Shown: in pieces, positions 19,500 to 25,485 of the stretch
How positions within the stretch are numbered: the first letter of the stretch is position 1
How the letters are laid out: every line of letters begins with the position of its first letter
Origin: a virus
Strand: one strand, 5' to 3'
Length of the DNA stretch: 34,343 nucleotides
Virus record (IMG/VR): IMGVR_UViG_3300021131_000029
Coordinates: 1-34,343 of that record
Made by a program: the position numbers and the translations under genes
Notes under the pieces: model-generated
Told to the model about the DNA's origin: nothing
Database searches by the model: none
What the model saw: only the letters and a program-made list of their open reading frames with translations

Positions 19500-19528
19500 A
19501 GGGAACCTTTTATAAACAATATTGTTTA
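19487..19528. terminator. convergent-gene terminator region with perfect palindrome
   Basis: AAAAGGT (19487-19493) and ACCTTTT (19505-19511) can pair, and a perfect 16-base palindrome TAAACAATATTGTTTA (19513-19528) follows. It includes the stop codon of the minus-strand SprT gene at its end. The stems are AT-rich, so a weak bidirectional terminator is the likeliest reading. Confidence 0.4.
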
Positions 19529-19873
19529 CAGTTCGTGACCGTCAAAGCCTAAACATTGGCCTACAAGCATTTTGCGCCTTTTAAAAGTGGCATCATGTAA
19601 AGTCCATTTGCCCGATTTATGCCTAGAACAATGAATCATTTCGTGAGCCATGCTTCTTACAACGGTATCGTAAAACGAGCATCTAGCCTTTGATATACAG
19701 AATATGTGGCTTTTAGCTAATGTTTCATCAAATTCATAGGTAGCCATAACGCTATGGTCATCCACAATTTCAAAACGGCAAATCTCGCTAGGCGGCAACT
19801 TCCATTTATTAAACGGTTCGCACTTGGCTAGCGTTAAATATATGGCCTCAAGGACTTTTGGAGTTATCTTCAA
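19526..19873 (-). CDS. SprT-like zinc metalloprotease
   Basis: 115 residues with HEMIH at 77-81, the HExxH zinc site of SprT/Spartan proteases, preceded by VVRSMAHE. It ends shortly after a DATFKRRK.LVG stretch, with C59, C65 and C82 spread around the site. SprT-type proteases cut proteins crosslinked or tightly bound to DNA. It is shorter than bacterial SprT (about 165 residues), with no zinc-ribbon tail. It overlaps the exonuclease gene by four bases, so both act from the same transcript. Confidence 0.82.
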   Translation of the reverse strand: MKITPKVLEAIYLTLAKCEPFNKWKLPPSEICRFEIVDDHSVMATYEFDETLAKSHIFCISKARCSFYDTVVRSMAHEMIHCSRHKSGKWTLHDATFKRRKMLVGQCLGFDGHEL

Positions 19874-20616
19874 AATAAATGTTTAAGTTTTGCGTGAGGT
19901 ATGACTGTTCTAGTATCTGTTGAATATGCACCACAGGCTTTACATTGATACCTTTGATATGCGCCTGTAGTTGTATATCTAAAACCTTTACTTAATAAAG
20001 CCGCTTTACTACAAGTAGGGCAAATAAAGCCATTTCTTCCTTTTTTCATTAAAGACATATTCAATGGCTGTTTAATCCAAGGAAGTAAGCGTTTATATAG
20101 CTTTTCCAATAACATTACATCTTGAATATTATAACTTTCCATTATTTTCCAGGCTTCTTTGTCATTATTCATGCACTTAACCCAAAGAATATGGCCTTCA
20201 TGCTCTTTCTTTTTGCCTAGTTTTAGCCTTTGCGCTACATAATCTAATTTATTACTAGGAAATCTAAACTGACTTTTAACGACCCTAAGTAAGTCAATTT
20301 GTTTACTGGGCGTTGGTGGATTCATTCTATGCACAATAAATTCTTTATTTAGCGTGGGCATATCAAACTTTGTGCCGTTATAGTGGACTACTGCATCGGC
20401 ATTTTCTAAAAGACCATGTATGCCTTCTAGCATTGATTTAGGGTCGCTTTTTTGAACTGAGTCAAAATATATATCTTTATCACCTAACCATTTGGCTGAA
20501 TAACACATGGTGTAAGATGATTCTAGTAACTGAGAAAGGCCTACATTTTGTTGCCAAATTCCCCAAACATGGGCTACATTAGGTGAAGTTTCTATATCCA
20601 ACAAGAGTATTTTCAT
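19870..20616 (-). CDS. DnaQ-fold 3'-5' exonuclease with zinc ribbon
   Basis: 248 residues. LLLDIETSP (D7, E9) is ExoI, VHYNGTKFDMPTLNKEFI gives the ExoII Asp, and YNIQDVMLLEKLY carries the ExoIII Asp, as in RNase_H_2/YprB-type exonucleases (PF13482). A C-terminal zinc ribbon follows (C199-x2-C202, C225-x2-C228). It should remove 3' ends from single-stranded DNA or process recombination intermediates. It is transcribed with SprT away from the VRR-NUC-like gene. Confidence 0.82.
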   Translation of the reverse strand: MKILLLDIETSPNVAHVWGIWQQNVGLSQLLESSYTMCYSAKWLGDKDIYFDSVQKSDPKSMLEGIHGLLENADAVVHYNGTKFDMPTLNKEFIVHRMNPPTPSKQIDLLRVVKSQFRFPSNKLDYVAQRLKLGKKKEHEGHILWVKCMNNDKEAWKIMESYNIQDVMLLEKLYKRLLPWIKQPLNMSLMKKGRNGFICPTCSKAALLSKGFRYTTTGAYQRYQCKACGAYSTDTRTVIPHAKLKHLF

Positions 20617-21318: not shown

Positions 21319-21549
21319 ATGGCTAATACAAACGATAAAGAAAATTGTATTTCTTGTCGATTTTTTTCTGGCACAGCTCCTATGGGAGTTTGCAGACGAT
21401 TTCCTGACCAAAGGAACAAAAGCCCTAACGACTGGTGCGGGGAGTTCATGCACTCTAAAAACCTAGTTATTGAGTCGATTACTAGTGGTTTGACCGTTAG
21501 TGTGTCCAAATCAATGAAAAACCCGATTGGCAGACCTAAAAAAACATGA
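21319..21549 (+). CDS. small four-cysteine protein, zinc-binding candidate
   Basis: 76 residues. CISCRFF (C10-x2-C13), GVCRRFP (C25) and DWCGEF (C40) form a four-Cys pattern common to small phage proteins; zinc binding is probable. The C-terminal third is unrelated in style and ends with IGRPKKT. The ribosome site CGGAGA lies six bases before the ATG, and the end overlaps the GroES-like gene by four bases. Function unknown. Confidence 0.65.
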   Translation: MANTNDKENCISCRFFSGTAPMGVCRRFPDQRNKSPNDWCGEFMHSKNLVIESITSGLTVSVSKSMKNPIGRPKKT

Positions 21550-21887
21550 AGTTAAAGCCATTATTAGACAAAATTGTTGTAAAACCTGATGTTCGTGTGT
21601 TATCTAAGATTCTTATTGTCAATAATAAGGAAGTAGAAAACATGGGAACAGTCGTGGCAGTAGGACCTGGCAAGAAATTACCTAATGGGCGCAGAGAAGA
21701 TATGCCTATTGAGGTTGGTAAAAGAGTTCGCTTTGGCACTATGAATGACGATAGGGGCGAGGAATATCTTAAATACTTTCCTTATTTTGAAGATGGAGTC
21801 AAATATTTAGTCATGAGTTGGCAAGATATTTGTTTTATGGAGGAGGACTATGAAAAAGAAAAGAACAGCATTAGCCAAAGCAATTGA
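21546..21887 (+). CDS. GroES-like co-chaperonin
   Basis: 113 residues. LKPLLDKIVVKPD starts the GroES barrel; ILIVN in the 15-34 segment occupies the mobile-loop slot that contacts GroEL. NMGTVVAVGPGKK then EVGKRVRFG and LVMSWQDICFM follow as in Cpn10. The last 15 residues are an acidic extension beyond the domain. No GroEL gene is present, so it presumably works with host GroEL, as T4 gp31 does for its coat protein. It is followed by an overlapping gene. Confidence 0.85.
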   Translation: MKLKPLLDKIVVKPDVRVLSKILIVNNKEVENMGTVVAVGPGKKLPNGRREDMPIEVGKRVRFGTMNDDRGEEYLKYFPYFEDGVKYLVMSWQDICFMEEDYEKEKNSISQSN

Positions 21888-22128: not shown

Positions 22129-22310
22129 CATTAGACTTAACTTTAGATGAAATTAATTACATCCTATTACAGGTAGGAAAAGCCCCATTTTCTGAATGTG
22201 CCCCATTAATCAATAAGATTCATATGCAAGCTAGTCCTCAAATACCTGCTAAACCATTAGGAATGGCTGGAAATACTGAACAAGCATCGGATATTATTGA
22301 TGAAAAGTAA
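22125..22310 (+). CDS. small conserved phage protein
   Basis: 61 residues starting TLDLTLDEINYILLQVGKAP then SECAPLINKIHMQA, a short amphipathic pattern I have seen in many phage genomes just upstream of terminase. A Pro-rich middle precedes a polar end. It overlaps the previous and next genes by four and eleven bases. Function unknown. Confidence 0.65.
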   Translation: MTLDLTLDEINYILLQVGKAPFSECAPLINKIHMQASPQIPAKPLGMAGNTEQASDIIDEK

Positions 22311-22953
22311 AGTTCTTCCTACAATTATTGTAAAAATTGCTGATTTAAAAAATCACCCTAGAAATTATAGGGAACATCACGATGACCAAGTAGACCATTT
22401 AATGCAAAGTATTAAACAAAATGGGTTTTATAAGAACATTGTTGTTGCAAAAGATAATACTATTTTGGCTGGTCATGGAATTATGAAAGCCGCTAAAAAG
22501 ATAGGAATGACCGAAATAGCCATAACAAAGCTTGAAATTGATGCTGAAAGCCCGCAAGCTTTAAAGATTTTGACTGGAGATAATGAAGTTGGAAGACTTG
22601 CTGAAATTGACGATAGGTCTTTATCGGAAATACTTAAAAAAGTAAAAGATGATGATATTGATGGCTTATTAGGTACTGGTTACGATGAAATGATGTTAGC
22701 TAATTTAGTTATGGTTACTAGACATGGTAAAGAAATAGCCAATATTAATGAAGCGGCTGAATGGGTAGGTATGCCTGATTATCAAGCAAAAGAAGACCCA
22801 ATTAAGATTGCAATTCAATTTAGAAGTGAAGAAGATAGGGAAGTATTTGCCAATTTATCTAAATTAAAAATGGGTAAAGACGGTGGAACAACTTGGTCTT
22901 GCTGGTGGCCTCCAAAAGAAAAAGAGGATATTTCATCTGTAAAGTATGAATAA
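22300..22953 (+). CDS. ParB-like nuclease-domain protein
   Basis: 217 residues from the ATG at 22300; a TTG one codon earlier is less likely. LKNHPRNYREHHDDQVDHLM then QSIKQNGF and ILAGHGIMKAA are the ParB N-terminal domain motifs (PF02195). The C-terminal 100 residues end in TTWSCWWPPKEKEDI and contain no methyltransferase motif (no DPPY). This shape is common next to phage terminases and to TAGT genes. It overlaps the glycosyltransferase gene by eight bases. Confidence 0.85.
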   Translation: MKSKVLPTIIVKIADLKNHPRNYREHHDDQVDHLMQSIKQNGFYKNIVVAKDNTILAGHGIMKAAKKIGMTEIAITKLEIDAESPQALKILTGDNEVGRLAEIDDRSLSEILKKVKDDDIDGLLGTGYDEMMLANLVMVTRHGKEIANINEAAEWVGMPDYQAKEDPIKIAIQFRSEEDREVFANLSKLKMGKDGGTTWSCWWPPKEKEDISSVKYE

Positions 22954-23824
22954 GCCAGAATTTCCTATCTACATTATATCCAAAGGAAGACATGATTGTT
23001 GTTTAACTGCTAAATTCTTTGTAGAAGACGGTGTAAATTTTAAAATAGTAGTAGAGCCTCAAGAAAAACAGCTTTATGCAGATATTTATGGTGTAGACCG
23101 TATATTGGTATTGCCATTTTCTAATTTAGGACTTGGTGGAATTCCAGCTAGAAATTGGGTTTGGGAGCATTCCAAAGCGGCAGGTGCTGAAAGACATTGG
23201 ATATTTGACGATAACATTGGAATGGTTCGTAGGCTACATAAAGGCAAAAGAATTAGATGTAATGCCAATATAGCTTTAAAAGCGTGCGAAGATTTTATAA
23301 ATCGTTATGAAAATATAGCCATAGCAGGGTTAAATTACACATTTTTTGCGGTTGGTAAAAAGCCGCCATTTAATCTAAATGTTCATGTTTATAGTTGTTT
23401 ATGCATTAAAAATGACTTAGATTACCGATGGAGAGGTAGATATAACGAAGATACCGATTTATGCTTGCAAGTGCTTAGTGGTGGTTTATGCACAGTATTA
23501 TTTAATGCTTTTTTAATTGATAAAATGGCTACTATGACTATGAAAGGCGGAAATGCTGACGTTCTATATAAAGGCGATGGTAGATTAAAGATGGCTAGGT
23601 CATTAGAAAGGTTATGGCCTGGAGTAGTAAGTGTAAATAGAAGGTTTGATAGGCCTCAGCATGTTATTAAAGATGCTTGGAAACGATTTGATACGCAACT
23701 TATACGAAAAAAAGATTTAAACTGGGACAAAATTGAAGAACAAACTTATAACATTAAGCTAAAACAGATTAAAACCGAGGTTAAAAGCGAAGAATTGAAG
23801 GAAATGTTAAAAAATGGAACTTGA
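22946..23824 (+). CDS. TAGT-type GT-A glycosyltransferase
   Basis: 292 residues. FPIYIISKGRHDCCLTAKFF then IVVEPQE begin a GT-A fold. HWIFDDNIG (D88-D89) is the metal/nucleotide-sugar DxD-like site, and RYNEDTDLCLQVL the catalytic Asp region. MATMTMKGGN and DRPQHVIKDAW are also conserved in this family, TET-associated glycosyltransferases (PF20691). The family was predicted to glycosylate modified bases in phage DNA. No TET/JBP or base-modifying enzyme is seen in the window, so its substrate here is unknown. Confidence 0.82.
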   Translation: MNKPEFPIYIISKGRHDCCLTAKFFVEDGVNFKIVVEPQEKQLYADIYGVDRILVLPFSNLGLGGIPARNWVWEHSKAAGAERHWIFDDNIGMVRRLHKGKRIRCNANIALKACEDFINRYENIAIAGLNYTFFAVGKKPPFNLNVHVYSCLCIKNDLDYRWRGRYNEDTDLCLQVLSGGLCTVLFNAFLIDKMATMTMKGGNADVLYKGDGRLKMARSLERLWPGVVSVNRRFDRPQHVIKDAWKRFDTQLIRKKDLNWDKIEEQTYNIKLKQIKTEVKSEELKEMLKNGT

Positions 23825-24224
23825 AAAAGATACCCTTAAAAAAGAAAATTGGGGAGGTGAAAGAGAAAATGCTGGTAGAGAAGCTTTTGAGCCTACAGAT
23901 GATGAAAAAGCCAATGTGGAACTTTTAAGTGGATATGGAGTTCCATTTGAGCAAATAGCTGTAATTATTAGAGATGGTATAAGTCTATCCACTTTAAGAA
24001 GACATTTTCCACATGAATTACTTAAAGGCAAAGCAAAAGCCAATGGCCAAATAGGTCGTGGATTGTTTCAAAAAGCCATGAGTGGTGATACCACAGCTAT
24101 GATTTGGTGGACAAAAACACAAATGAAATGGTCTGAAACCGTAAAAAATGAAATTACTGGGTTAGATGGAACAGAACTTAAAAACATCCAAATTACCTTT
24201 GTAAAGCCAGATGGAAGTAATTAA
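23814..24224 (+). CDS. terminase small subunit
   Basis: 136 residues. VPFEQIAVIIRDGISLSTLR then RHFPHEL is a helix-turn-helix used to recognise the packaging site. GRGLFQKAMSGDTTAMIWWT follows as the oligomerisation part seen in TerS proteins. It overlaps the glycosyltransferase by 11 bases and the large subunit by 14. Acting as a ring, it starts headful packaging with TerL. Confidence 0.82.
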   Translation: MELEKDTLKKENWGGERENAGREAFEPTDDEKANVELLSGYGVPFEQIAVIIRDGISLSTLRRHFPHELLKGKAKANGQIGRGLFQKAMSGDTTAMIWWTKTQMKWSETVKNEITGLDGTELKNIQITFVKPDGSN

Positions 24225-25485
24225 CGGTAGGGCTAATGCTGATTTTCCACAAAAATTATCAGTATTGTTTGAGCCAGAAACCTGTCGTTATAGGGTTTTA
24301 TATGGCGGTCGTGGTGGTGCTAAGTCTTGGGGCATTGCTAGGGCTTTGCTTATATTGGGCACTAAAAAAGCTATACGAATTCTTTGTGCAAGGGAATTTC
24401 AAACTTCAATAAGCCAATCTGTTCATAAATTGCTTTCAGACCAAATATTTTCTTTAAATATGTTGGATTTTTATGAAATAACTCAAAATTCCATTAGAGG
24501 TATAAATGGCACAGAGTTTAGTTTTGCTGGATTAAAGAACAATATTGCTAATATTAAGTCTTTTGAGGGCGTTGATATTTGTTGGATTGAGGAAGCAAAT
24601 ACTGTATCCAAAATGAGTTGGGACGTACTTATTCCAACAATTCGTAAGCAAAACTCAGAAATATGGGTAAGTTTTAATCCTGAACTTGAAACAGATGAAA
24701 CTTATAAGCGCTTTGTAGCAAATCCACCAGATGATTCTGTAGTTCAAAAGATTAATTGGCAAGATAATCCTTGGTTTCCTGAGACTTTAAGGCTTGAAAA
24801 AGATGCTTTGTATGCTAGGGACAGAGAAGCATATAACACTGTTTGGGAAGGAATGTGCCGCCAAACTGTTGATGGCGCTATATTTGCCAAAGAAATGCAA
24901 CAAGCTGAGTTTGAGGGCAGGATTACTAGAGTACCTTATGACCCAATTAAGCCTGTAATGGCTGTATTTGACATTGGTTGGGCAGATGCAACTGCAGTTT
25001 GGTTCTTGCAATTCATAGGAATGGAAACTAGGCTAATTCGTTATTACGAAACAACACAAACAACAATGAGCCAAATCTTAGCCAAGATGCAGACTTTTGG
25101 TTATGTCTACGATACTTTGTATTTGCCCCATGATGCACAGAATAAAACGCTAGCCGCCAATGGTAGAAGCATTGAAGAAATAGTTAGGTCAGCTGGCTAT
25201 AATGTAAGAATTATTGACAGAACTCCTGTAACAGATAGTATTAATGCCGCTAGAACAATCTTTTCTAAATGCTATTTTGATAGAGAAAATTGCCACGAAG
25301 GTCTACAATGTTTAAGACATTATAGGTATGATGTAAATGATGCTGGAACATTTAGCCAAAAGCCTTTGCATGACAATTATTCTCATGGCGCTGATGCCTT
25401 TAGGTATATAGGATTAATGATTAATGAGCCTAAGCAAGTGAAGAAAAAACAAATAAATTATCAGGTAAGTAGTTGGATGTCCTGA
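24211..25485 (+). CDS. terminase large subunit (PBSX/P22-type)
   Basis: 424 residues. ATPase: GGRGGAKSW (Walker A, 32-40) and VDICWIEEAN (Walker B with catalytic Glu, 121-130). Nuclease: D254 in FDIGWADATA plus HGADAFRY near residue 400. This is the Terminase_3/PBSX layout used by headful packagers. It drives DNA into the portal and cuts at the end. It ends 22 bases before the portal gene, and its type agrees with a circularly permuted genome. Confidence 0.93.
   Translation: MEVINGRANADFPQKLSVLFEPETCRYRVLYGGRGGAKSWGIARALLILGTKKAIRILCAREFQTSISQSVHKLLSDQIFSLNMLDFYEITQNSIRGINGTEFSFAGLKNNIANIKSFEGVDICWIEEANTVSKMSWDVLIPTIRKQNSEIWVSFNPELETDETYKRFVANPPDDSVVQKINWQDNPWFPETLRLEKDALYARDREAYNTVWEGMCRQTVDGAIFAKEMQQAEFEGRITRVPYDPIKPVMAVFDIGWADATAVWFLQFIGMETRLIRYYETTQTTMSQILAKMQTFGYVYDTLYLPHDAQNKTLAANGRSIEEIVRSAGYNVRIIDRTPVTDSINAARTIFSKCYFDRENCHEGLQCLRHYRYDVNDAGTFSQKPLHDNYSHGADAFRYIGLMINEPKQVKKKQINYQVSSWMS

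Follow-up and report, generated by a model that had tools for sequence, protein, structure and literature searches.

A ParB-like protein and a TAGT-family glycosyltransferase, encoded by overlapping genes beside the terminase of a podovirus-like phage, very probably operate as one functional unit, with a conserved domain at the C-terminus of the ParB-like protein (designated GMPEF) as the link between them. The window, i.e. the whole stretch of DNA which was analysed, covers an IMG/VR virus record in full (34,343 bases), a linear contig ending within tail/structural genes; its portal matched phrog_156 and its TerL is of the Terminase_3 type. The ParB-like, TAGT, TerS and TerL genes overlap serially, with 8-14 nt shared at each junction, in agreement with the all-overlapping ParB-TAGT-TerS order described in an earlier note on this DNA. 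The features concerned are:

22300..22953, + strand: ParB-like protein, 217 aa (PF02195, E 1.4e-5; phrog_620, E 3e-28; AF2 pLDDT 85; 6sdk, Z 14.9), with predicted N- and M-like domains at about aa 5-149 and the C-terminal GMPEF domain at about aa 152-217
22753..22950, + strand: GMPEF coding region (EWVGMPDY...WSCWWPP...SSVKYE), without a Pfam match; TAGT found in 79/80 loci of a domain-only search
22946..23824, + strand: predicted TAGT glycosyltransferase (GT-A), 292 aa, DDN at aa 88-90 (PF20691, E 2.6e-46)
23814..24224, + strand: terminase small subunit (TerS), overlapping the TAGT gene (phrog_309, E 2.5e-10)
24211..25485, + strand: terminase large subunit (TerL), overlapping the TerS gene (PF04466, E 2.4e-38)

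Comparison with close relatives indicated strong purifying selection on both ParB and TAGT (dN/dS ~0.04-0.06, with dS near saturation; pN/pS ~0.1).

The TAGT protein matched PF20691 over the full length of the profile (positions 1-205 of 205; 158.6 bits, the cut-off being 27.5), and also phrog_842 (E 1.3e-35). D88-D89 were invariant in two alignments and N90 in one of them, while E168/D169 lie within the RYNEDTDLC motif, where D169 was invariant. The fold was computed on a homologous fusion protein (L177), the model of which aligned to GT-A enzymes with Z ~14; a phmmer search of the window TAGT against PDB sequences returned chance matches only. By family, fold of the homologue and acidic motif the protein is predicted to be a metal-dependent glycosyltransferase of the GT-A type, the earlier note having proposed a TAGT-family GT-A enzyme.

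The ParB-like character of the neighbouring protein was likewise borne out. Its better start is ATG 22300, TTG 22297 being disfavoured. The match to PF02195 (ParB_N) scored 25.5 bits, which is 0.8 below the gathering score of 26.3, and the AF2 model aligned to the ParB-CDP structure 6sdk over 140 residues with an rmsd of 3.5. The PHROG matches and the predicted structure thus assign it a ParB fold with N and M domains, an arrangement it is predicted to share with the ParB/Noc CTPase clamps (6sdk, 7bnr and 7ng0; Z 14.5-14.9). It differs from these clamps in that GMPEF replaces the C-terminal dimerisation part and in that the nucleotide-box arginine is absent; residues N22, R24, G58 and N95 of the nucleotide motifs are kept, while the arginine is replaced by isoleucine (AGHGIMKAA), which makes CTP clamping uncertain. 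None of the PDB structures matching the model spans the GMPEF part, which is no proof of a novel fold. In four relatives (L012, L027, L037 and L043) the ParB gene is long (348-361 aa), with apparently two tandem ParB domains before the TAGT. Relatives' ParBs of 350-361 aa were considered as ParB-methyltransferase fusions and rejected, as they matched ParB_N only (some in two stretches) and no methyltransferase domain.

The final ~60 residues of the ParB-like protein constitute the GMPEF domain (W-x-G-M-P-E-F ... WyP), a stretch which matched no family in Pfam. When viral contigs were searched with GMPEF alone, the single locus of the 80 found which lacked a TAGT was cut at the contig end. In the reverse search, starting from TAGT, GMPEF was present in 72/73 testable viral loci and 37/39 bacterial-contig loci; these counts come from retrieved sets and not from a random sample. 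In the set of 135 TAGTs obtained by clustering at 80% identity, GMPEF was encoded within 72 ParB-GMPEF genes, as 39 separate genes, in 12 GMPEF-TAGT fusions and in one ParB-GMPEF-TAGT fusion (L177). A second single chain of the latter kind (L122) was found in a sequence with ambiguous bases. The next cassette gene was overlapped by 63 of the 72 ParB-GMPEF genes. An N-terminal extension of the TAGTs of some Vibrio, Aeromonas and Pectobacterium phages also resembles GMPEF, the matches of Vibrio 1.076.O, 1.124.O and Kuja being weak (E 0.004-0.017). When the presence of ParB was mapped onto the TAGT tree, parsimony required 16 changes, at least 6 of them forced by starred branches; GMPEF thus persisted through repeated gains or losses of the pairing. 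One locus (L138) carried a single GMPEF gene with three TAGT-matching ORFs nearby, and another (L068:7467-9064) carried genes for a GNAT acetyltransferase and a NeuB-family (sialic-acid-type) synthase just upstream of the ParB-TAGT-terminase cassette. The near-exclusive linkage and the fusions agree with the self-contained two-gene module suggested in the earlier note, which had recognised the ParB-TAGT pairing but overlooked its physical connection, a domain at the C-terminus of ParB that is hardly ever seen apart from TAGT.

The 3 kb downstream of 59 ParB-GMPEF loci held 91 ORFs of 250 aa or longer; scanned with terminase profiles, these gave 29 matches to Terminase_6N, 14 to Terminase_3, 10 to TerL_ATPase and 6 to GpA (models can overlap), compared with one to Terminase_6N, one to GpA and two to Terminase_6C for 37 ParB-less loci. 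With three of the models alone, a terminase was found anywhere in the record for 32/46 ParB-GMPEF records. The counts rest on profile scans, a Walker-motif regular expression having undercounted. A terminase neighbour, drawn from several unrelated families, is therefore typical of the ParB form and uncommon for loci without ParB; in ParB-less phages GMPEF-TAGT proteins were found among replication genes. TAGT-less ParB genes were also found ahead of the terminase, in Streptococcus Javan117 and, in a looser arrangement, in Arthrobacter Pointis, so the terminase position may follow ParB alone. The role at packaging that the earlier note considered possible is supported by gene position only, a position which TAGT-less ParB genes can share. 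In Javan117 the same slot holds a ParB-DNA methyltransferase and a SAM-synthetase-like gene before TerL. The latter gene (L213:5158-5934) matched the S-adenosylmethionine synthetase N-terminal domain and lies between the ParB-methyltransferase and the terminase. Javan117 resembles the window in placing a ParB N-domain and a modifying activity upstream of the terminase, and differs in that its effector is a fused N6/N4 methyltransferase, with no GMPEF apparent and no glycosyltransferase present.

Profile searches of the window record gave no match to TET (PF12851), ThyA/hydroxymethylase (PF00303), C5-methyltransferase or N6/N4-methyltransferase, as the earlier note had observed of base-modifying partners, and the same held for its two nearest long relatives, of 36.2 and 36.7 kb. 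The TET/JBP profile found nothing in 95 TAGT-bearing records, a number which excludes the positive control, Nonlabens phage P12024L (E 2.8e-29); the ThyA-type profile found nothing in 60 metagenomic TAGT records while matching its positive controls, six large named phages. Methylases were occasional: of 41 long records, 38 of them metagenomic and 3 from named phages, 4 had a C5 and 8 an N6/N4 enzyme. Most metagenomic records may be fragments, which makes an individual absence weak and leaves the overall pattern in place. The lack of a base-modifier partner is the rule among TAGT relatives and no peculiarity of the window; the expectation that TAGTs usually accompany TET or other modifiers did not hold among the relatives of this TAGT, nearly all of which are without TET. 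Solitary TAGTs have been reported to be common (288/753 phage genomes) and have been proposed to add further glucosyl modifications (PMC13216743).

It is proposed that the ParB-like protein would serve as a DNA-clamp or targeting subunit and its GMPEF domain as a dock for the TAGT; a joint machine of this kind is supported by the predicted folds and the single-chain fusions. Produced together with the packaging genes, the putative complex would bind DNA, the clamp bringing the TAGT onto phage DNA late in infection, and would put a sugar from a presumed donor on the DNA or on a DNA-bound target. This would happen ahead of packaging or in its course, and would probably protect against host nucleases. 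Without a base hydroxyl, the TAGT would either use another group of the DNA or modify a protein of the packaging machine. Taken whole, the best explanation, that a ParB-GMPEF-TAGT unit glycosylates phage DNA or a DNA-bound target around packaging, stands at about an even chance, and the case for DNA itself as the acceptor is equally balanced. In favour of DNA are the ParB-methyltransferase in the same slot of Javan117, where ParB accompanies DNA modification, and the TAGT of T2/T6, which has been assigned to glucosylating DNA-borne glucose (PMC13216743). Counted against it are the scarcity of methylases and the finding of no gene supplying a hydroxyl on a base. We know of no precedent for transfer of a first sugar to plain DNA, since the T-even TAGT extends glucose already on hmC. 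A more specific mechanism is possible rather than probable: at packaging, a ParB-type clamp with a dedicated dock would bring the TAGT to phage DNA that carries no modification, or to the packaging machine on the DNA.

A somewhat unlikely alternative places the sugar on a protein of the virion or of the packaging apparatus (terminase, portal or capsid), with ParB holding the TAGT at the packaging complex and additional glycosyltransferase, FkbM methyltransferase and epimerase genes lengthening the glycan. No TET or hydroxymethylase was found in any ParB-TAGT record searched, methylases were few and the gene opens the structural operon, all of which would fit. Accessory genes were also found, namely a glycosyltransferase with a DXD region (L074, L140), an FkbM methyltransferase (L051, L055) and five epimerases downstream, which suggests that more than one sugar step is possible in some relatives. 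Corndog-type virion glycosylation genes similarly combine a glycosyltransferase with methyltransferases in the head operon, and a ParB partner is not reported for them; in mycobacteriophage Corndog, the glycosyltransferase and O-methyltransferase genes located between those for portal and protease have been proposed to glycosylate the capsid (PMC4351075). A protein acceptor, however, leaves the ParB clamp partner unexplained, as it does the GMPEF-TAGT proteins among the replication genes of ParB-less phages, and TAGT activity has been assigned on DNA only.

Classical DNA hypermodification, in which an undetected phage or host enzyme supplies the acceptor base and the TAGT caps it, is improbable. 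Nonlabens phage P12024L has a TET-TAGT-MTase order, with the same TAGT family and a similarly tight two-gene arrangement, and a small piece may be missing from the window record. Yet P12024L has TET directly upstream and neither ParB nor GMPEF, its TAGT is 27% identical and sits on a very long branch, the TET and ThyA profiles recovered their controls but found nothing in the 95 and 60 records, and the hosts cover many phyla, which makes one shared host base unlikely. The beta-glucosyl-HMC-alpha-glucosyltransferase of T2/T6 belongs to the same TAGT family (PMC13216743, PMC13390438); that system requires hmC and a first glucosyltransferase, whereas no ThyA-type hydroxymethylase was found in the window. 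Quite improbable, too, is a TAGT directed at a host molecule (defence protein, surface polymer or nucleotide) next to an independent late DNA-binding ParB gene; the NeuB and acetyltransferase genes 5' of the pair in L068 and the common prophage carriage in E. coli would agree with it, while the near-exclusive GMPEF-TAGT linkage and the ParB-GMPEF-TAGT single chains point to a joint function. Serratia phage eta was considered as a ParB phage with modified DNA and rejected, its DNA having been shown to be unmodified (PMC3918226).

If the proposed clamp-and-dock mechanism is correct, sugar-marking of DNA without earlier base modification would be widespread in phages and E. coli prophages. Were the acceptor plain DNA, the route to DNA glycosylation would be new; were it a packaging protein, so would be the route to virion modification. 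In either case many 'solitary' TAGTs gain a partner and a test, and the GMPEF domain, unnamed in Pfam, predicts which TAGTs act without TET. A literature search, which did not extend to Iyer 2013, where TAGT was reportedly named, found no account of the ParB-TAGT pair or of the GMPEF domain. ParB goes unmentioned in the main text of PMC13216743.

The survey for a ParB-TAGT-TerS order in other phages, recommended in the earlier note, was positive. Lactobacillus phage jlb1 has the order ParB-TAGT-TerS-TerL (gene 25 against PF20691, 1e-32), and a similar order, in some cases interrupted by other genes, was found in E. coli and Salmonella phages, Lactobacillus c5, Nocardia NTR1, Porphyromonas phage 005b and halovirus HHTV-2. 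These constitute a second ParB-TAGT lineage. GMPEF was sought and not found in the ParBs of jlb1, E. coli, c5, NTR1, 005b and HHTV-2. The GMPEF-less ParBs (L212, L214, L215, L216 and L217) have a conserved C-terminus of their own (...RH.vf.y..iA.YYAHA...ALVIID...), perhaps an equivalent dock. At least 80% of the 1,717-bp ParB-TAGT pair was carried by 885/5,426 complete E. coli genomes (16%, or about 1 in 6); with the pair present in these and in culturable phages, the acceptor should be findable in ordinary laboratory strains. In the one strain examined (E28) the pair adjoins trkG, as in the Rac prophage, and ynaK is annotated as broken, so some E. coli copies are not intact. K-12 retains just the first 254 bp of the pair, and in its Rac prophage (L222) the truncated ynaK is left over from the ParB half and is followed by ydaY.

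Elsewhere in the window, a GroES-like (Cpn10) gene (21546-21887; E 1.3e-10) lies a short way upstream of the ParB gene and was also present in close relatives (e.g. L002, L003, L005 and L006). On the - strand amid rightward genes, at 19526-20616, a DNA polymerase exonuclease-subunit-like gene and a possible zinc-protease-like gene were noted.
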